32,565 nt of DNA from an uncultured Bacilli bacterium (GTDB taxonomy: Bacteria > Bacillota_I > Bacilli_A > RF39 > UBA660): NCBI GenBank assembly GCA_944329365.1, contig CALVIC010000014.1:1-32565 (forward strand), given 5' to 3'. Positions within the stretch are counted from its first letter, which is position 1; each line of letters starts with the position of its first letter. The notes under the pieces were generated by a model. That model was not told the origin of the DNA and made no database searches. It was given only the letters and a program-made list of their open reading frames with translations. The position numbers and the translations under genes were made by a program. Shown piece after piece: positions 1,339-22,978 of the stretch.

Positions 1339-2582
1339 TATTTTTCCTCCCCTTTTAAGAAAAATGTAGCACTTGTGTTTAATTTTTTGACTAAAGTGGA
1401 TACATTTTCTTTGGTTACTTTTCGATAATTTTTTCTTTTTTCTTCGATATTATCTGCGTCAAAAATGATTTCATCTTGAAATTGCCGTTTTAAATTATTT
1501 AAATAATCGGAATCCTTGTTTAGTTCTAACAATTTTTTGTTTATAGCATTTTCAAGATATTCATTTTCATATTCCCCATTTTTTATTTTTTCTAATGTTT
1601 CTTTGATTAAAAATTCTACTCTTTCATAGTCTTTTGCATTAATAGCCGTATGGATGTACTGGCTATTTGTATATTTGTCACTAAATGATAGGATATAATA
1701 ACAAAGGGATTCTTTTTCTCTTATTTCGCGGTACAAAAGTCCATTGTTAATTCCAATTATATTATTTAATACTGGCAAAACATAGTTTTTTTCGAAGGCA
1801 GTCATTTTACTTAAATAATAACTTTTAAATAAAATGCTTTGGATTTTATCGGTTCTTTCAATTTTTAGGCCTTGGACCGGTTTGGTTTCACTTAAATAAA
1901 ATTGTTTTAAATTAGTATTTCGAGGATTTAAATTCAAATTATTATTTAACACTTTTTTTACTTCTTTTTCATCTATATTACCGACTAAAAAGACTTCAAC
2001 TTTTGACGTGTTTATAAGTTTTAGATAATAGTCATAAAGTTCTTTTTCGCTTGTAGATTTTAGGGAAGTTATTTGTTCTTGAAGATTTGATTCAAATGGG
2101 TATATTTTTTGAAGGGCTAGTAGTTCATTATAGGCATATGCTTCTTTATTATCCGGCATGGTTTCTAAACGGTTTAGCACTTTATTTTTGGCGTATTCAA
2201 AGATTTCTTTAGAAATACCATTTTCGATAATGTTTTCGTTATAGGCATATTTTAGAAAATAGGAAATATTTTTATCATTCATTCCTTTTTCGGTATATTT
2301 TTCATGAATAAATTGGCCAGAAAAATGATAAAGTATGACATTGCCTTTTATTTCTTGATAGAAGTCATAGTTTGGTTTATAAATTTTTAATTCTTGGCGC
2401 TGGCGCTCTTTTTGAGAATTATAGACAGAGTTATATAAAACTGTTAGCAATAATTTTCGGTAAATAAAATCTTCTTGAGTTAGATTTTTTTCAAAAACGA
2501 TATCAAAACTAACTTCATGATATTTATCTGTCTGTAATAAATGAACATTATAACCGTCTGTTTTAAAGTCTACTCTTCGCAT
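1338..2582 (-). CDS. M16 family peptidase-like protein, YmfF-like (non-catalytic partner, pair 3)
   Basis: A 414-residue M16-fold protein without the HxxEH zinc motif at the N-terminus. It keeps the C-terminal-half signature REIREKESLCYYI, the Arg/Tyr loop that in two-subunit M16 enzymes completes the active site of the zinc-bearing partner. It should therefore act as a heterodimer with the product of 58..1338, which starts at its stop codon. The start MRRVDFKTDGYNVH aligns with the starts of the other two F-type proteins in this window and follows AGAAGGA with 7 nt spacing. Role inferred from family; substrate unknown. This is the most divergent F-type copy. Confidence 0.85.
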   Translation of the reverse strand: MRRVDFKTDGYNVHLLQTDKYHEVSFDIVFEKNLTQEDFIYRKLLLTVLYNSVYNSQKERQRQELKIYKPNYDFYQEIKGNVILYHFSGQFIHEKYTEKGMNDKNISYFLKYAYNENIIENGISKEIFEYAKNKVLNRLETMPDNKEAYAYNELLALQKIYPFESNLQEQITSLKSTSEKELYDYYLKLINTSKVEVFLVGNIDEKEVKKVLNNNLNLNPRNTNLKQFYLSETKPVQGLKIERTDKIQSILFKSYYLSKMTAFEKNYVLPVLNNIIGINNGLLYREIREKESLCYYILSFSDKYTNSQYIHTAINAKDYERVEFLIKETLEKIKNGEYENEYLENAINKKLLELNKDSDYLNNLKRQFQDEIIFDADNIEEKRKNYRKVTKENVSTLVKKLNTSATFFLKGEEK

Positions 2583-2607
2583 TTTATAGTCCTTCTTTCT
2601 TAGATTT

Positions 2608-2636
2608 AGTTTAATAAAAATTTATTTTTTTGTCAA
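2608..2636 (-). promoter_or_regulatory. Probable promoter of M16 pair 3
   Basis: On the minus strand TTGACA (2631..2636) and TAAACT (2608..2613) are separated by 17 bp. This lies just after the terminator of pair 2 and about 30 bp before the ATG at 2582, so pair 3 seems to have its own transcript. The -35 is consensus; the -10 is weak. Confidence 0.55.
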
Positions 2637-2639
2637 TCA

Positions 2640-2666
2640 AAAAAGATAAGGGTCACTTATCTTTTT
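2640..2666 (-). terminator. Rho-independent terminator after M16 pair 2
   Basis: Perfect 11-bp stem AAAAAGATAAG / CTTATCTTTTT with a 5-nt loop, running into a T-rich stretch on the minus strand. It overlaps the last codons of the gene ending at 2653. Confidence 0.75.
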
Positions 2667-3918
2667 CGACGATGGTTATTGTTTTGTTGCTGAAATCTAA
2701 TTTAGAGGCAAATTCTTTAAAATTATCATAGGAAATATTTTTATAAGTATCATAAATATCGTAATTGACGTTACCGTATAAATAAATATCACTAGAGATT
2801 GAGTCTCTCGTTCTAGGTACTTTTTCAGTAAGTAAAACAACTGAACTTAATAAAATTTTTTTGATTAAATTAAATTCTTTTTCAGAGTAATTTTTATCAT
2901 TAATAGCGTTATCAATGAGGTTTATAATTTTTTCGGTGTCTTCTTTAACTGTAATTCCGACATTTATAATGTAATAATCATCAGCTTTATAAAAATTACA
3001 GCCAACATCAGTTATAATATTTTCATCATTGAAGGTTATGTCTGGGAAATCAGATATTTCACTAAACTTTAAATTTAGGAGTAGTGAAAAATATAAATCG
3101 GTTATTACTTTGTTTTCGTTAGGAGTTTTTACTTTATAGCTGATTAAGATTTCTTTGTTTTCAGTATTTTTATAAATAATTTCTTTTTCTCTAACAACCG
3201 TTTCTGGTTCTTTTTTAGAGATTTTAATCGGTGGTTTTTGATAAGAAAGTCCTAAATCTTCATAATATTTTTTTATAAAGTCTAATGTTTTATCTAGTTC
3301 AAAGCCACCAGTTATGGTCAAATACATATTACTTGGATGATAAAAGGCATTATAGCAATCATAAAGCATTTCTTTGGTTATACTATTTATATCTTTTAGG
3401 GAACCTAAAACAGAATTTTTAAAATAGGAATTTTCAAATAGATTTTCGTTTGATTTATCGTAGGCAACTGACCTTGGTTCGTCTAAGGTGTTTTTTTTCT
3501 CTTGAGAGATTATGCCTTTTTCTTTTAAAACGTTTTCATCGGTAAAATACGGTTTGTGCACGGTATCTAATAAGTTTTTTAGATTTTTAAAGAAGTCATC
3601 CCCACCTTCAAAGTGATAGGCGGTTATATAAGGAGTTGTAAAAGCATTGGCATAAGCTCCAGTTGATTCATAGACTTTTAAAGGGTCTGTACCATCTTCT
3701 TTTTCGAACATTTTGTGCTCGAGGAAGTGAGCGATTCCAGCAGGAACTTTAATGTCTTTACCGTTTAACTCAAATTCTAAGACGGATCCACCAAAAAGGA
3801 CGGTCATTTGGGCAGCTACTTCGTGTCTTGGCATTGGACAAAGAAATAAACGAAGACCATTTGGTAAAGTTTCTTCAAAGACGTCTAAATCTAAATTTTT
3901 AAATGTTTTTTTCTCCAT
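2653..3918 (-). CDS. M16 family zinc peptidase, YmfH-like (catalytic partner, pair 2)
   Basis: A 421-residue M16 peptidase with an intact zinc site His64-Phe-Leu-Glu67-His68 and the distal Glu at 140 (ISQEK). The substrate-strand motif N91-A-F-T and AYHFEG after it are typical. Of the three catalytic copies this looks closest to the usual YmfH form. The ATG at 3918 follows AAGGAG and lies inside the end of the partner gene (20-nt overlap), so translation is probably coupled to 3899..5170. No export signal. Predicted role: peptide or small-protein processing or degradation in the cytoplasm with its partner; substrate not inferable. Confidence 0.9.
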   Translation of the reverse strand: MEKKTFKNLDLDVFEETLPNGLRLFLCPMPRHEVAAQMTVLFGGSVLEFELNGKDIKVPAGIAHFLEHKMFEKEDGTDPLKVYESTGAYANAFTTPYITAYHFEGGDDFFKNLKNLLDTVHKPYFTDENVLKEKGIISQEKKNTLDEPRSVAYDKSNENLFENSYFKNSVLGSLKDINSITKEMLYDCYNAFYHPSNMYLTITGGFELDKTLDFIKKYYEDLGLSYQKPPIKISKKEPETVVREKEIIYKNTENKEILISYKVKTPNENKVITDLYFSLLLNLKFSEISDFPDITFNDENIITDVGCNFYKADDYYIINVGITVKEDTEKIINLIDNAINDKNYSEKEFNLIKKILLSSVVLLTEKVPRTRDSISSDIYLYGNVNYDIYDTYKNISYDNFKEFASKLDFSNKTITIVEKDK

Positions 3919-5170
3919 GGACTTCTCCTTTCAGCAAAAAGATGGTATCAATATGAACTTTTTTGGCTAAAGCTGATATATCTTCTTTAGTTACTTTACT
4001 TATGTTTTTTCTTCTCTCATCGACACTGTCACTACCAGTTAACTTTTCGGATTCAAAGTTAGATGTTAGTGAATCTAAGGAGTCTTCAATGTTGTTTAGG
4101 GAGTTATAGTATACTTGACGAGCGCCTTCTAAGTATTCATCTGGATAATCCGCTTTAATCATTTTTTCCATATTTTCTTCGATGAGGTCGTAGACTTCGT
4201 CAAATTTATCTGCATCGATGCCGGCAAAGATATTCATAATTCCGGTTAAGCTTTCTCTAGATGAGTAGATGTAATAGCAAAGGGAATGTTCTTCTCTGAC
4301 TGTATTAAATAAAAGTGAATTGTTTCCACCTAAGATCCAAGAGTACAAGGTAAAGACGTATTTTTTTTCAAAGTCATTTAGGTTTAGGGCTTTACAGCCG
4401 ATTAAGACTTTGCTTTGGTTGTTTGGCACTGGCTCACTATATCCATGAGGAGGACTATTATAGGTCTTTTGAGTTATATAAGCGAAATCACTATTTTTTC
4501 GAGTGGATGAAATTTTTAGTTTTTTATTTAAGGTGGCGATAATTTCATCTTCGTCAATGTCTCCAGCTATAAATATATCAAATTTGCTGCTACCTATCAT
4601 TTTCTGATAAAAGTCATAAAGCATTTTCGATGAAATTTTTTCGGTTTTATAATACATTTCTTCTAAAGTGACTGGTTTAAAGTCGTAGACTTGCATATAT
4701 CCTTGTAATCTTACTAGTGAATAAGCATCTGGACGATCTTCAAGAGATCTTAAATAGTTAAGTCGGTTTTTCTTTTCTTTTTCGAAAATATCTTCTATAA
4801 ACTTATTTCCATCGGTTTTAGGTTCAAATATTATTTTAAGCAAATATTCAATGGTTTTTTCGGTCATGCCTTTTTCTGTGTATTTTTCATTTAAAAATGA
4901 ACTTCTTAGAGAAAACATGCTTTGATTACCGCTGACTGACGATTTAATTGTCCAAGCTGGGTCATATATTTCCGCACATGAGATATTTCGCATCTTTAGG
5001 GTTTTATAGCCTGTACTTAATGGTAAGACGTTTTCTAAAAGAGACATAAAAAAGCGGTCTTCTCTTTTTAAAGGAAACCTGATTTCAACGTTAAAATTAA
5101 CAGTTTTAAATTTATCTGTTTTTAATAGGTGAAGGTCATAACCTTCCATTTTTAAATCTTTGTATTCCAT
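3899..5170 (-). CDS. M16 family peptidase-like protein, YmfF-like (non-catalytic partner, pair 2)
   Basis: A 423-residue M16-fold protein lacking HxxEH but keeping the Arg/Tyr loop VREEHSLCYYIYSS in its second half. It starts MEYKDLKMEGYDLH behind AGAGGTG with 6 nt spacing, 30 nt after the deoD stop; no terminator is obvious in that gap, so deoD and this pair may share a transcript. A short palindrome CAATTTT-AC-AAAATTG (5196..5211) covers the deoD end. Expected to form the second shell of a heterodimer with 2653..3918. Confidence 0.85.
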   Translation of the reverse strand: MEYKDLKMEGYDLHLLKTDKFKTVNFNVEIRFPLKREDRFFMSLLENVLPLSTGYKTLKMRNISCAEIYDPAWTIKSSVSGNQSMFSLRSSFLNEKYTEKGMTEKTIEYLLKIIFEPKTDGNKFIEDIFEKEKKNRLNYLRSLEDRPDAYSLVRLQGYMQVYDFKPVTLEEMYYKTEKISSKMLYDFYQKMIGSSKFDIFIAGDIDEDEIIATLNKKLKISSTRKNSDFAYITQKTYNSPPHGYSEPVPNNQSKVLIGCKALNLNDFEKKYVFTLYSWILGGNNSLLFNTVREEHSLCYYIYSSRESLTGIMNIFAGIDADKFDEVYDLIEENMEKMIKADYPDEYLEGARQVYYNSLNNIEDSLDSLTSNFESEKLTGSDSVDERRKNISKVTKEDISALAKKVHIDTIFLLKGEVHGEKNI

Positions 5171-18677: not shown

Positions 18678-18708
18678 AAAAAAACAGGATTTTTGGTCAG
18701 GTCCTGTT
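18678..18708 (-). terminator. Terminator after the NfeD-SPFH operon
   Basis: AACAGGA / TCCTGTT 7-bp stem with a 12-nt loop, followed by TTTTTTTC on the minus strand; it covers the stop codon of the SPFH gene. Confidence 0.75.
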
Positions 18709-19594
18709 ATTTTTTGTCTTTAAACATCTCTTCAATCGTAGTACCTAGTGTAGCTAAATTTTGAAGATCTGATGGAACGATTATTTTCGTTGCTTGACCA
18801 TCGGCTACTTTACCTAGAGCTTCAAAACTTTTCAAAGTTAAAACGGATTTGTCCGCTCCGGCTTCTTTAAGCATTTTAATGGCATCGGCTTCGGCTTCGT
18901 TTAATTTACGAATTGCTTCAGCTTCACCTTCAGCTTCTTTGATTTGAGCTTCTTTACTGGCTTCAGCTTTTAGAATCGCACTTTCTTTTTCTCCTTCAGC
19001 AATCAAGATACTAGATTTTTTCTCACCTTCGGCTTGAAGAATTTTTTCTCTTCTTTCGCGCTCGGCACGCATTTGCTTTTCCATTGCGTCTTGGATATCT
19101 TTAGGTGGCAAGATATTTTTGACTTCAACACGGTTTATTTTGATACCCCACGGGTTTGTTGCCTCATCCAAGATTGAACGCATTTTGGAATTAATTATGT
19201 CTCTAGATGTCAATGTTTGATCTAATTCTAAATCACCAATTAAATTTCTCAGGGTGGTGGCGGTTAGATTTTCAATGGCATTAAGTGGATTTTCAACTCC
19301 ATAGGTATACATTTTAGGATCAGTTATCTGGAAATAAACAACTGTATCTATTTGCATAGTAACGTTATCTTTAGTGATAACTGGTTGGGGTGGAAAATCT
19401 TTAACTTTTTCTTTTAAGCTTACTCTTGATGAAACACGATCTATAAATGGAATTTTAAAATGAAGTCCATTTCCCCATGTTGTATAATATGATCCTAATC
19501 TTTCAATGACATAACATTCTGATTGGGACACTATTTTTACGTTTGGTAAAATTATAACCAAAACGAGAACTAAAAGAATTATTAAGAAAGCCAC
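18707..19594 (-). CDS. SPFH/stomatin-like (QmcA-type) membrane protein
   Basis: A 295-residue prohibitin-homology protein. An N-terminal membrane helix (2-18) is followed by the SPFH domain (NVKIVSQSECYVIERLGSYY ... INRVEVKNILPP, about 20-185) and a long helix rich in Glu, Ala and Lys with AEGEKKS, AEGEKES, AEASKEA and AEGEAEA repeats (about 195-250). Such proteins form large ring or cage assemblies that organise membrane domains. Unlike Bacillus FloA this is the longer stomatin/QmcA form. GTG start with AAGGAGG 7 nt upstream; the start overlaps the NfeD stop by one base. NfeD next door is its usual partner. Confidence 0.92.
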   Translation of the reverse strand: MAFLIILLVLVLVIILPNVKIVSQSECYVIERLGSYYTTWGNGLHFKIPFIDRVSSRVSLKEKVKDFPPQPVITKDNVTMQIDTVVYFQITDPKMYTYGVENPLNAIENLTATTLRNLIGDLELDQTLTSRDIINSKMRSILDEATNPWGIKINRVEVKNILPPKDIQDAMEKQMRAERERREKILQAEGEKKSSILIAEGEKESAILKAEASKEAQIKEAEGEAEAIRKLNEAEADAIKMLKEAGADKSVLTLKSFEALGKVADGQATKIIVPSDLQNLATLGTTIEEMFKDKK

Positions 19595-20025
19595 TATTTT
19601 TCCTCCTTTACCTTCTCTACTTTGAGTTTAACCCCATTTAGTTCAGTAACTCTAACTAAACTTTCTTTTTGGATTAGACGGTCTGCTTCGGCAGTCCATC
19701 TTTTACCATCGACTTTGACTTCTCCTGGATTTGTTTTAGTGATTTTTTCGGTTACAATTCCAGTCATACCGATTACTCTATCGGCATTGGTTTTGGGATG
19801 GCTTTTGTTGAAATGTTTTACTAATATGGGTTTTGTGGTTATCAGGAGTATAACGCCAACGATAACAAATACAGCGAATTGAATTATGTAATTGTCGGTA
19901 AGTAAGGATACACCCAAAGCGCATATACCACTGGCTACAAACCAAACTGTTGTTAGATTAATTGACATAGCTTCTATTAAGGCAAGTAATATAACGATGA
20001 TTAACCAAACTACCCATTGTGACAT
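19594..20025 (-). CDS. NfeD family membrane protein
   Basis: A 143-residue short NfeD: about three membrane helices (7-27, 28-45, 47-68) then an OB-fold (about 80-140) with RVIGMTGIVTEKI, PGEVKVDGKRWTAEAD and GVKLKVEKV. NfeD proteins are obligate partners of SPFH proteins, here the next gene, with which it overlaps. GGAGGGG lies 6 nt before the ATG. A strong extended -10 promoter precedes it. Confidence 0.92.
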   Translation of the reverse strand: MSQWVVWLIIVILLALIEAMSINLTTVWFVASGICALGVSLLTDNYIIQFAVFVIVGVILLITTKPILVKHFNKSHPKTNADRVIGMTGIVTEKITKTNPGEVKVDGKRWTAEADRLIQKESLVRVTELNGVKLKVEKVKEEK

Positions 20026-20048: not shown

Positions 20049-20078
20049 ATTATAGCATATGAAAGACGTTAATTACAA
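20049..20078 (-). promoter_or_regulatory. Promoter of the NfeD-SPFH operon
   Basis: TTGTAA (20073..20078), 18-bp spacer and TG-C-TATAAT (20049..20057) on the minus strand, about 25 bp before the ATG at 20025. Confidence 0.75.
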
Positions 20079-20081
20079 CAA

Positions 20082-20103
20082 AAAAACATCTTGCGATGTT
20101 TTT
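20082..20103 (-). terminator. Terminator after the coiled-coil gene
   Basis: Perfect 9-bp stem AAAAACATC / GATGTTTTT with a 4-nt loop, followed by a T-rich stretch on the minus strand; overlaps the stop of the gene ending at 20102. Confidence 0.85.
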
Positions 20104-21955
20104 ATCTAGTTCTACCCTTTACTTGCTCTTCCATTTCAGCTTCCCTAGCTTCTTGCTCCTTCAACTGAGCCATATATTGAAGTGGATTTAAATTATTTTC
20201 GGTTTGACCACTCATAATTCTAACTAATTCATCAGCTATATTAGATGTTTGATCATCGTTCATAACTGGAGATGATGGAGTGTCAAATACTGGTGTGCTG
20301 GTTGACTCTGATTCAACAGTCGGTTCTGGTGTGACAACAGGAATTTCAGCTGTTTCAGGTTCATTTGAAGTTGCCGGAATATTTACAACTGGGCTTTCTG
20401 GCTCTAATGGTGCGACTTGATCATTTGCTGGAACTTCGCTTGTTTGATTATCGATGTTGCCTTGGAATTCAACTGGAGAAACGACAGTTGTATCAGAATC
20501 AATTTCTTGCTTTACTACGGACTGCTCATCTTGCTCATGAGGCATTTCAGCCGGTTTTACAGTATTTTCTACTTCACTAGTATTTCTAGCAAGTTGAATT
20601 CCTCTATTTAAAGCATCATAGAAGTTTGATACGGCATTTTTCAATTTATTTAATTCCTCTTCTAAACTTTCGATTTGTTTCTTATAATCCTCACCTTGAG
20701 CTTGAAGATCAGATATTTGTTTATCTTTTTCATCATTGGTTTTACGAGCAGAAGCTAATTCGGCTTCCCTTGCTTTTAAAGTTTTCTTTGTACTATCTAA
20801 TTCTTGATTAGTTTTGTTTAATGTCGTTTCAGCCTCTTTCAAATTATCTTTAGTTTCTTTTAATTCGGCTTTAAGTTCTTGACTATTTTTCTTAGCTTCA
20901 AAAGTATCTTTAGATAATAGTGATGACGTTTTTACTTTTCCGTCATTTTGTTGATGAGCAAACTCTTTGAAGTATTCTTCATAATCTGCAAAGTCTGTTA
21001 AGTTCTTAAGATCTTTATATATTATGACTTGCTCGGCACTGACTTCGTTTATTTGAGTATTTCCTCTGTCTTTTTGAACAGGAGTAATTTTACGTGCCTG
21101 GCCTGTAACTACACGTGTTGCTGGATTTTCTTGTGGAACAGGTGCAGGCATAGTTTGAGTAACAGGTGTTGCTGTTACATCGTTAACGTTGTCATTGCCT
21201 TTTCCTTTTGCTGAGTCGTTTAGATCTTTGATGTAACCAAAAAATTGTGGAAGCATGTTTTCGATATCGTCTTTATTAAAATCACGGTAAGATAAATCTG
21301 CATATTCCTTTAATGAATCGATATAGGTTTTTAATTTTTCTCGGTCGGCTTTTGAAAGCTTAGAATTTTTTTGCAAATCTTTAGCTATATCTAAATGATC
21401 TTTGATTCGCTCTTTTAGCAAATCAATGCTATTTCTGAACTCTTCTTTAAGTTTAGCTTTATATTTTATGTGACGAATAAAATGCGGGATAACATAGAAC
21501 TTACGAGATACTGCACCTTTATTTTGATATGATACGGCGTATTTTTGATTTTTTAAATCGTCTATTTGTCTATCGTATTCTTCGATTTGCTTGTTTATCT
21601 CAGTTATTTCTTTTGTACTCCATAAGCCGGATTCATTTAAGCTTTTTGCTTTTTCTTTAGCAGCTTTGCGTTTTTCTTTTAGTTCTTTTAATTTTTCATT
21701 GATTTTTTGAAGTTTTTTGTCAATTTCTTCTTTTAGCTTAGTTTGTTCTTCAGAACGTTTGAGTAGATTACGAAATTTATCAATCATTTTTCTAGGAACT
21801 TTAATTGGTTTTGAACCTTTTTGAGTTACAGTTTGTGCTTCTTGGTTTGCTTCTTTAACTCCGGCCCTAGCTTGTCTTTGGATTTCTTCAGGTGTTAGGC
21901 CTGTTGCTTTCTGTAACTCTTCAGGAGATAATCTTCTTTGCTCTTCATTATTCAT
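20102..21955 (-). CDS. Large coiled-coil protein of unknown function
   Basis: A 617-residue soluble protein that I cannot assign. Layout: a short helical head with two related segments (SPEELQKATGL and TPEEIQRQARAG, 10-32); a charged coiled coil (about 62-140); a basic aromatic stretch SRKFYVIPHFIRHIKYK (150-166); a helical region to about 248; a Pro/Val/Thr linker (255-300); a short folded segment (305-335); a second long heptad coil of Lys/Glu/Leu (350-445); an acidic Pro/Val/Thr/Glu region (465-570); and a helical tail (573-617). No signal peptide or membrane helix, so cytoplasmic; a structural or scaffold role is only a guess. It follows a DUF1292 gene by 6 nt with GGAGTGAT as SD, in one operon. 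Confidence 0.85.
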   Translation of the reverse strand: MNNEEQRRLSPEELQKATGLTPEEIQRQARAGVKEANQEAQTVTQKGSKPIKVPRKMIDKFRNLLKRSEEQTKLKEEIDKKLQKINEKLKELKEKRKAAKEKAKSLNESGLWSTKEITEINKQIEEYDRQIDDLKNQKYAVSYQNKGAVSRKFYVIPHFIRHIKYKAKLKEEFRNSIDLLKERIKDHLDIAKDLQKNSKLSKADREKLKTYIDSLKEYADLSYRDFNKDDIENMLPQFFGYIKDLNDSAKGKGNDNVNDVTATPVTQTMPAPVPQENPATRVVTGQARKITPVQKDRGNTQINEVSAEQVIIYKDLKNLTDFADYEEYFKEFAHQQNDGKVKTSSLLSKDTFEAKKNSQELKAELKETKDNLKEAETTLNKTNQELDSTKKTLKAREAELASARKTNDEKDKQISDLQAQGEDYKKQIESLEEELNKLKNAVSNFYDALNRGIQLARNTSEVENTVKPAEMPHEQDEQSVVKQEIDSDTTVVSPVEFQGNIDNQTSEVPANDQVAPLEPESPVVNIPATSNEPETAEIPVVTPEPTVESESTSTPVFDTPSSPVMNDDQTSNIADELVRIMSGQTENNLNPLQYMAQLKEQEAREAEMEEQVKGRTR

Positions 21956-21961
21956 ATACTA

Positions 21962-22234
21962 TCACTCCTCATTCCTTATAATATCGCGCATAACATCTTT
22001 GACTTCGTTCCATTCTTTAGGTGGAATTGTATCTAATTCATAACCATCTTCGGTTTCACTAATAATTGATGCATGTACTGTTTCCATTTCTTGTTCATCT
22101 ACTTCATTAAACGTATATAAGATATAATTCTTCCCTGTCTCTTCAAGCTGGAAGCATAAGAGTACTTCAGCTTCGGCAATTGTGCCATCAGTTTTTTTTA
22201 CTTTGATCTTTTGTAGACTTTCAACTTTTGCCAC
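21962..22234 (-). CDS. DUF1292 family protein
   Basis: A 90-residue acidic protein with the DUF1292 pattern: a charged strand with DGTIAEAEVLLCFQLEETGK, then YILYTFNEVDEQ, ASIISETEDGYELDTIPPKE and a C-terminal helix EWNEVKDVMRDIIRNEE. The family is widespread in Bacillota and has no defined function. The start is GTG at 22234 with GGAGGGG 6 nt upstream. It leads the coiled-coil gene in one transcript behind a strong promoter. Confidence 0.85.
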   Translation of the reverse strand: MAKVESLQKIKVKKTDGTIAEAEVLLCFQLEETGKNYILYTFNEVDEQEMETVHASIISETEDGYELDTIPPKEWNEVKDVMRDIIRNEE

Positions 22235-22259: not shown

Positions 22260-22288
22260 ATTATATCATAGCAATTTTTTTTTGACAA
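22260..22288 (-). promoter_or_regulatory. Promoter of the DUF1292/coiled-coil operon
   Basis: TTGTCA (22283..22288), 17-bp A-rich spacer, TG-A-TATAAT (22260..22268) on the minus strand; transcription should start near 22253, before the GTG at 22234. Confidence 0.85.
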
Positions 22289-22332: not shown

Positions 22333-22611
22333 TTATTTGACGTTGCTACTATGTTTAATTGATTCGACTTCAATTATAAAGTCTTTTGTTTCAACTTTGT
22401 CACCTTGTTCATGGCCTTTAAGAATGGTGGCAAGTTCACTATTAGGTTTAACGGTAAGGACGTTTTTCATTCGTTTTTTCAAACCAATTCCAAGTTTAAC
22501 TTTTTGAGGTGTTAAAGCTATTGGTTTATTTTCAAATGGAACTTTACTGAATATAAGAACGTCGATTATGTCACCTTCTTTTATTCGGCTGTTTTTAATA
22601 CGTACTGTTAT
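22333..22611 (-). CDS. Unknown 92-residue protein, apparently starting at ATA
   Basis: An open frame of 92 codons without interruption, ending TAA, with protein-like composition: VRIKNSRIKEGDIIDVLIF ... ALTPQKVKLGIGLKKR ... GDKVETKDFIIEVESI. It has no ATG, GTG or TTG between the in-frame upstream TGA and residue 37. The only codon well placed is ATA at 22611, 7 nt after GAGGTG (22619..22624), inside the end of the gene 22595..22978. The alternatives are a single-base sequence error (ATG read as ATA) or a shift from the upstream frame (+1 would be needed). A late TTG or ATG start would leave about 45 to 55 residues. Product not recognised; predicted mostly beta with basic patches. Confidence 0.65.
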   Translation of the reverse strand: MTVRIKNSRIKEGDIIDVLIFSKVPFENKPIALTPQKVKLGIGLKKRMKNVLTVKPNSELATILKGHEQGDKVETKDFIIEVESIKHSSNVK

Positions 22612-22978
22612 CTTTGATCACCTCTTTTACTATTTCAAAGTTTTCTGGTTTTTCAATACTTCCTTCACTGATGAAATCTTCGCCAGAGATAAATTTAAGA
22701 ATTAGTTTCCAATTTTCATCGATAAAATAGTGCCCATCATATGTGTAATTTTTATTCCAAGATAAAGTGTGAAAGTCTTTTAGCGTTTTTAGAACTATTT
22801 TAAAGTCTTTGGAAGATAACTTTTTACCATATATTTTTATTTGTGCGGTTTTATCTGTAATGTATTCATCAATTTTGATATCTTTAGTAGTCAAATAATA
22901 TATTCTTTCTAGATTTTCGGTAAAGTTTTCTTCGATAAAAATGATTGTATGAATTTCATCATATAATTTTACACGCAT
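22595..22978 (-). CDS. Small protein of unknown function
   Basis: A 127-residue soluble protein that I do not recognise. It looks alpha/beta, with many Lys, Ile and Tyr (for example KLILKFISGEDFISEG). ATG behind GGGGGAGT at 6 nt, preceded by an extended -10. Its last codons (EVIKDNSTY) overlap the start of the 92-codon frame by 17 nt, and the SD of that frame is read here as part of KEVI; the two are therefore probably one operon. Confidence 0.75.
   Translation of the reverse strand: MRVKLYDEIHTIIFIEENFTENLERIYYLTTKDIKIDEYITDKTAQIKIYGKKLSSKDFKIVLKTLKDFHTLSWNKNYTYDGHYFIDENWKLILKFISGEDFISEGSIEKPENFEIVKEVIKDNSTY

Follow-up and report, generated by a model that had tools for sequence, protein, structure and literature searches.

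The pairing of a small DUF1292-like gene with a long coiled-coil protein, here called X, is conserved in the genus Candidatus Coprosoma, recurs in other genera of the family, and occurs in some of these as a fusion within a single ORF, which bears out the coupling proposed by the original prediction. By profile comparison, the small gene is homologous to the DUF1292 family (PF06949; YrzB of B. subtilis) and X is a member of a fast-changing gut-bacterial family. The pairing and the fusions suggest that the two proteins work together. A coiled-coil scaffold bound by DUF1292, for which we infer both the binding and the scaffold role, is the best explanation overall, and we give it an even chance of being correct; our confidence is well above this for the genomic pairing, which was observed directly, and a little below it for the scaffold role.

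The gene pair and its transcription unit

The window, i.e., the whole 32,565-nt stretch of DNA that was analysed, is an entire contig from a host genome of 1.30 Mb. As originally described, it contains an ORF for X situated 6 bp downstream of a DUF1292-like ORF, and both are real genes. The features of the locus are as follows:

22260..22288, minus strand: promoter TTGTCA-17-TATAAT, with TG before the -10 (sequence scan)
21962..22234, minus strand: type II DUF1292-like gene, 90 aa, GTG start (Pfam DUF1292, AlphaFold2, dN/dS)
20102..21955, minus strand: X, coiled-coil partner protein, 617 aa (ORF, family in the same slot, AlphaFold2, dN/dS)
20081..20104, minus strand: intrinsic terminator-like hairpin, from the X stop codon (-8.1 kcal/mol)
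20049..20078, minus strand: separate NfeD promoter-like site (10/12 match, TG)
19594..20025, minus strand: NfeD-like neighbour (Pfam NfeD, 49.0 bits)
18707..19594, minus strand: SPFH/Band_7 (stomatin-like) neighbour (Pfam Band_7, 145.9 bits)

The closest named record to the DUF1292 protein of the window belongs to C. intestinipullorum (98%), and named records with related DUF1292 proteins identify the genus as Candidatus Coprosoma, given in PMC8035907 as GTDB genus CAG-822 of the order RF39. As described in PMC10868615, RF39 bacteria are mostly walled by prediction, and spore formation is predicted to be possible.

Promoters meeting the same definition (TG ahead of the -10, or a score as high, at least 9.5) precede DUF1292-X in 38/42 loci, compared with 58/400 random stretches, and nearly all of the conserved ones have a 17-bp spacer and TATAAT. 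The original claim of a strong promoter shared with DUF1292 thus holds as to a near-consensus and conserved site, "strong" being a statement about its sequence. Downstream of X, a terminator-like hairpin was found in 32 of the 37 loci with a downstream stretch (24/400 in random stretches) by a laxer search, the stricter scan giving no hairpin at 20081..20104. Among 32 loci in which both starts are available, DUF1292 and X overlap by 4 bp in eight and by 1 bp in six. Because NfeD has its own promoter-like site, DUF1292-X would form one transcription unit and NfeD-SPFH another. Upstream, between a 127-aa gene and DUF1292, there is also a conserved open frame of 94 codons (22333-22617, minus strand); neither the window nor G019 offers an ATG, GTG or TTG close to its beginning, where G028 does have an in-frame ATG, and it may use an unusual start codon.

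The X family and its predicted layout

X had been called an orphan, a designation that did not survive, as homologues occupy the same slot across the genus. A query with the single X sequence matched only 3/59 genomes, its own included, and among the 58 others identified just G019 (81% across the first 502 residues) and G028 (37%), because X evolves fast; searches by slot and by profile were needed. Thirty-three of the 36 same-genus genomes, besides that of the window, yielded a fetched type II DUF1292 locus. A complete X ORF of 467–687 aa follows DUF1292 in 30/33 of these loci, so that the neighbourhood survey proposed with the original prediction did find a conserved neighbour; two of the remaining three are cut by a contig end, and one leaves no room for X. 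Two genomes have no type II locus, G035 being without a DUF1292 match and G027 having a weak one only. When a profile was built from 31 X proteins and run on a second collection, the ORF that follows DUF1292 was matched in 36/41 loci; this collection includes many of the same genomes as the first. Four of the five misses run into contig ends, and L109 is a true miss. Nine loci of this collection have an X that was not part of the profile: seven were matched, with E values from 3e-5 to 7e-69; of the other two, one is truncated and the second is L109. Across the class the profile matched 24/198 genomes. Outside the genus the best E value was 1.5e-7 and the matches fell mostly in the coil, and for that reason they are not counted as homologues.

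The newly named X partner family is defined by the slot after a type II DUF1292, an N-terminal basic motif, the central LxDLTxFxxYxxY and a long coil, all of which are present in X of the window. These characteristics are general among X proteins of the genus, which often also carry a KG[KR]TR-like tail; the most divergent member, L068, lacks the central motif. The segments of X are:

21767..21817, minus strand: residues 47–63, partner motif GSKPIKVPRKMIDKFRN (motif window in 28/31 genus X proteins)
21524..21793, minus strand: residues 55–144, predicted helical hairpin (AlphaFold2)
21461..21514, minus strand: residues 148–165, aromatic basic block (sequence; net charge +5 over 145–165)
21011..21199, minus strand: residues 253–315, predicted disordered linker (pLDDT <50 for 253–310; dN/dS 0.76–0.79)
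20879..21010, minus strand: residues 316–359, central motif LxDLTxFxxYxxY ... LLxxxxF (genus alignment)
20567..20911, minus strand: residues 349–463, single 115-residue helix, predicted coiled coil (AlphaFold2, heptad run)
20261..20566, minus strand: residues 464–565, acidic Pro/Thr/Glu linker, mostly predicted disordered (AlphaFold2, composition)
20105..20119, minus strand: C-terminal tail KGRTR (tail pattern in genus X)

The AlphaFold2 model of X has a mean pLDDT of 70.8 and a low pTM (0.32). It places helices at residues 158–249 and two short C-terminal helices after the acidic linker, and agrees with the two long helical stretches originally described, one of hairpin and helices (55–249) and one a single helix (349–463). 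The aromatic basic block was likewise found, as were the Pro/Thr/Glu linkers, in which these residues account for 27% (253–315) and 39% (464–565). The expected lack of an export signal was also borne out, in that no stretch of 19 residues in any of the 31 X proteins of the genus reaches a Kyte-Doolittle hydropathy of 1.6, the level sought for a membrane span or export signal. As to the cytoskeleton- or scaffold-like layout, the layout itself fits the predicted fold; a scaffold function would be a further step. The central motif block is the best-conserved part of the genus alignment. The tail pattern [GH][KRM][THS][RLM], picked post hoc once the tails were known, occurs in 17/31 genus X proteins, 2/45 other partners or tails and 3/399 control ORFs.

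The dN/dS of X is 0.40 and 0.39 relative to its two nearest relatives, from which it follows that X is a real gene under constraint; values of up to 0.79 make the first linker its fastest-evolving segment. The corresponding values are 0.02–0.10 for DUF1292 (0.02 against the nearest relative) and 0.00–0.03 for SPFH. The X linkers of L044:7346-8806 and L066:6957-8456 consist of near-identical tandem repeats, e.g., PEVTMPDFELPKEE, and linker length therefore seems to vary by repeat expansion. A fast-evolving putative scaffold can pass for an orphan while gene slot, promoter and motifs stay conserved.

Clear homology to a known family, which would have spoken against the original prediction, was looked for by profile, PDB sequence and fold, PADLOC and PHROGs searches, and only generic coils matched X. 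Among these are weak coil matches to SMC and Rad50 models which, together with the basic patches of X, could mean that X is not a scaffold and instead organises nucleic acids or is SMC-like. The match to SMC (TIGR02168) reaches 31.6 bits against a cut-off of 567, is confined to coils and brings with it no ATPase head or known DNA-binding domain, and we regard this reading as quite improbable. Still less probable is that the locus derives from a phage or acts against phages, with one component evolving fast: X does diverge fast and has weak coil matches in PADLOC and PHROGs, but these are generic, the locus is inherited in synteny beside housekeeping genes, and dN/dS is below 1 wherever it could be computed.

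DUF1292 types, pairing and fusion

The DUF1292-like protein of the window scores 22.9 bits with PF06949, below the gathering cut-off of 24, and is therefore a divergent member; a fused relative (L138) scores 24.2 bits. The ruvX-linked type I copies are recovered by a type II profile, with E values ranging from 1e-10 to 3e-12 within Coprosoma and from 2e-14 to 1.5e-18 elsewhere in the family. The copy in the window precedes X and is without the ruvX context of B. subtilis, and a second copy in the same genome (L170) adjoins a RuvX-like protein, so named from its sequence. In a tree built on 90 columns, the 32 type I rows lie on one side of a branch with a support of only 75, and a 36-row genus type II set, including one row from another genus, has a support of 98; the distant rows L068, L108 and L109 fall outside this set. 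Judged from sequence, the ruvX-linked paralogues are separate from type II. Fusions require at least three changes on the tree by parsimony, of which the starred branches force only one. DUF1292 is present in 155/198 sampled genomes of the class, and outside the family its open frames do not exceed 188 aa among the matches listed.

In AlphaFold2, DUF1292 is modelled with five beta strands and one helix at the C terminus (pLDDT 80.6). Searches of the PDB by sequence and fold returned weak matches to small beta-barrels, the best SH3- or Tudor-like barrel having Z 4.6 and rmsd 2.2 over 46 residues, and Foldseek gave no match to the model at E ≤0.001. SH3- and Tudor-like barrels often bind peptides; the match is too weak for membership of that fold family to be claimed.

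A literature search for DUF1292, YrzB and PF06949 found no description of function. In B. subtilis, yrzB is listed as a "putative anti-sigma factor" and numbered between yrrL and yrrK (PMC3814617). The module might accordingly be a regulator with X as adaptor or decoy, in which DUF1292 could, e.g., be a factor of the anti-sigma or envelope-stress kind that X tethers, and the type I copies examined here do stand in a similar gene order. The available part of PMC3814617 gives no backing for the label, however, nor was any sigma factor noticed near the locus; we consider a regulator unlikely.

For the other genera of the family, 53 of 60 stretches were used, chosen from DUF1292 and SPFH matches (L130–162, L185–204); L163–L169, which had been picked for their SPFH gene and showed no DUF1292 match, were left out. 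They yielded 48 type II ORFs, of which 35 have an ORF of at least 150 aa next, within 60 bp, and 10 are fused to a tail of at least 80 aa in the same ORF. Three fall outside this rule: in L157 the next ORF (335 aa) has a start that overlaps, in L161 it has 141 aa, and in L192 it has 171 aa and begins 66 bp further on. The partners differ widely in sequence. No fusion was found among 32 ruvX-linked type I loci, which were selected by us from 15 + 20 fetched after dropping L173 (no copy) and L215 and L224 (not ruvX-linked). Since most type I copies are also followed by a long ORF, encoding a protein of about 360 aa, a long next ORF is not distinctive by itself; what distinguishes type II is fusion and the kind of partner. 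Coil-like runs of at least 50 occur in 32/45 partners and 31/31 genus X proteins against 45/127 controls, a crude score which 35% of controls pass, and the L159 partner has no coil at all.

These data bear on the possibility that DUF1292 and X are merely co-transcribed, without joint action, in a neighbourhood kept by descent. Both genes do lie in a syntenic block with NfeD, SPFH, YqfC and YqfD. Against this, other genera retain the pairing elsewhere on the chromosome and with very different partners, and there are single-ORF fusions, which makes joint descent alone an unlikely account.

Several further arrangements were observed. In L140 (G245, 1808-4402) DUF1292 units occur in tandem, the first split from its coil partner and the next fused. 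L224 (G304:C24) has an extra DUF1292 with a 429-aa protein after it, in addition to the L159 pair of the same genome, and the module may thus be multicopy. A YutD-like gene often precedes type II DUF1292 in other genera (L152, L155, L162 and others), assigned by a PF06265 match in L152 and by likeness elsewhere.

The partners share a short basic motif, K-x-V-K-V-s-x-x-M-x-x-x-L, e.g., GNNPVKMPKKFGNIMST (L130) and EHRSVLVSRKFINGLVT (L140). With significance (p ≤0.05) judged against each protein's own shuffles, a matrix of 28 genus motifs identified 10/27 non-genus partners or tails and 10/142 control ORFs, and a matrix of genus and fused motifs 17/35 split partners and 7/127 controls (Fisher 1.5e-8), leaving 18/35 split partners without a significant motif. 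These are the cleaner tests; the motif windows of fused tails were chosen by eye for their resemblance to the genus motif, so that the fused-to-genus comparison (8/31 with the same top window) is partly circular. The place of the motif is not fixed, since only 9/35 split partners have their top window among residues 1–60 (5.4 expected). In the fusions, a motif-like stretch, read by eye, follows DUF1292 at a distance of at most some tens of residues, and for this reason the motif is proposed as a docking element. A degron-like C-terminal A, seen post hoc in 10/35 split partners and 25/399 controls, is not claimed.

Proposed mechanism and known systems

We propose that one promoter would drive a two-gene module composed of a conserved small beta-barrel, the type II DUF1292, and the fast-evolving coiled-coil X. 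The two proteins probably bind each other or a common client, the conserved basic strand-plus-helix at X 47–63 being the likely docking element. X might then oligomerise through its coils and act as a cytoplasmic scaffold with flexible spacers, to which we assign slightly less than an even chance. That X acts close to the membrane, perhaps together with NfeD and SPFH next to it, is a step we hold as rather unlikely.

NfeD stands directly after X in 26/30 genus loci, and a stomatin-like SPFH gene usually comes after it. The exceptions are L060 (one ORF before NfeD), L044 (SPFH directly), and L057 and L063 (neither). The order DUF1292-partner-NfeD-SPFH occurs in five other genera (L130–L134), NfeD being separated from the partner by 0–2 ORFs; L160 has NfeD, with no SPFH recognised, and in many other genera, e.g., L145–L149, SPFH lies away from DUF1292. 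A membrane-like window was found in 2/45 other-genus partners (L134 and L150). From this gene order a membrane link of DUF1292-X is plausible, against which stand the separate promoter-like sites of X and of NfeD/SPFH and the terminator-like hairpin between the two. In one subgroup of the genus (L055, L057, L061, L063, L064 and L066) the block has an extra protein of 438–482 aa downstream, after SPFH in 4/6 loci, and several of these proteins end in an ...ESYSxQIA-like sequence.

A replacement of the cytoskeleton by X was also considered, and this idea is weakened: full-length MreB was matched (E value about 1e-147) in 21/22 same-genus genomes, the one without a match being that of the window, and DivIVA-family proteins in 22/22, so that the genus has no cytoskeletal gap to fill. 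More tentatively, we speculate on a two-component scaffold found throughout the lineage of RF39-type gut bacteria, in which type II DUF1292 would dock on the short basic motif of otherwise unrelated-looking, rapidly changing coiled-coil rods, an adaptor-plus-rod arrangement that in Coprosoma might be membrane-proximal via the NfeD/stomatin neighbourhood; this extended version is doubtful. If true, it would be the first functional handle on DUF1292. The pairing and fusion with coiled-coil rods point to an adaptor role for this widespread family and give it a candidate partner.

In comparison with known systems, the DUF1292 of the window shares homology with the PF06949/YrzB family, as both its Pfam score and the recovery of type I copies by the type II profile indicate, but differs in falling below the cut-off, in its lack of linkage to ruvX and in being paired or fused with a long coiled-coil protein. 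The neighbours NfeD and Band_7 form the pairing of the SPFH1 operon in the SPFH-NfeD operons of PMC2636767; X and DUF1292 lie upstream of them with a promoter of their own, and the available description of the operon there includes no such partner. The likeness of X to SMC, Rad50 and EzrA is one of generic heptads, far below curated cut-offs and with no non-coil domain in common. Crescentin and intermediate-filament-like scaffolds resemble X in a long coil, flexible flanks and a weak match to the crescentin rod (Rod_CreS, PF19220; 23.1 bits against a cut-off of 100). That match is confined to one coil, however, and X is set apart from crescentin by its DUF1292 partner and its specific motifs.
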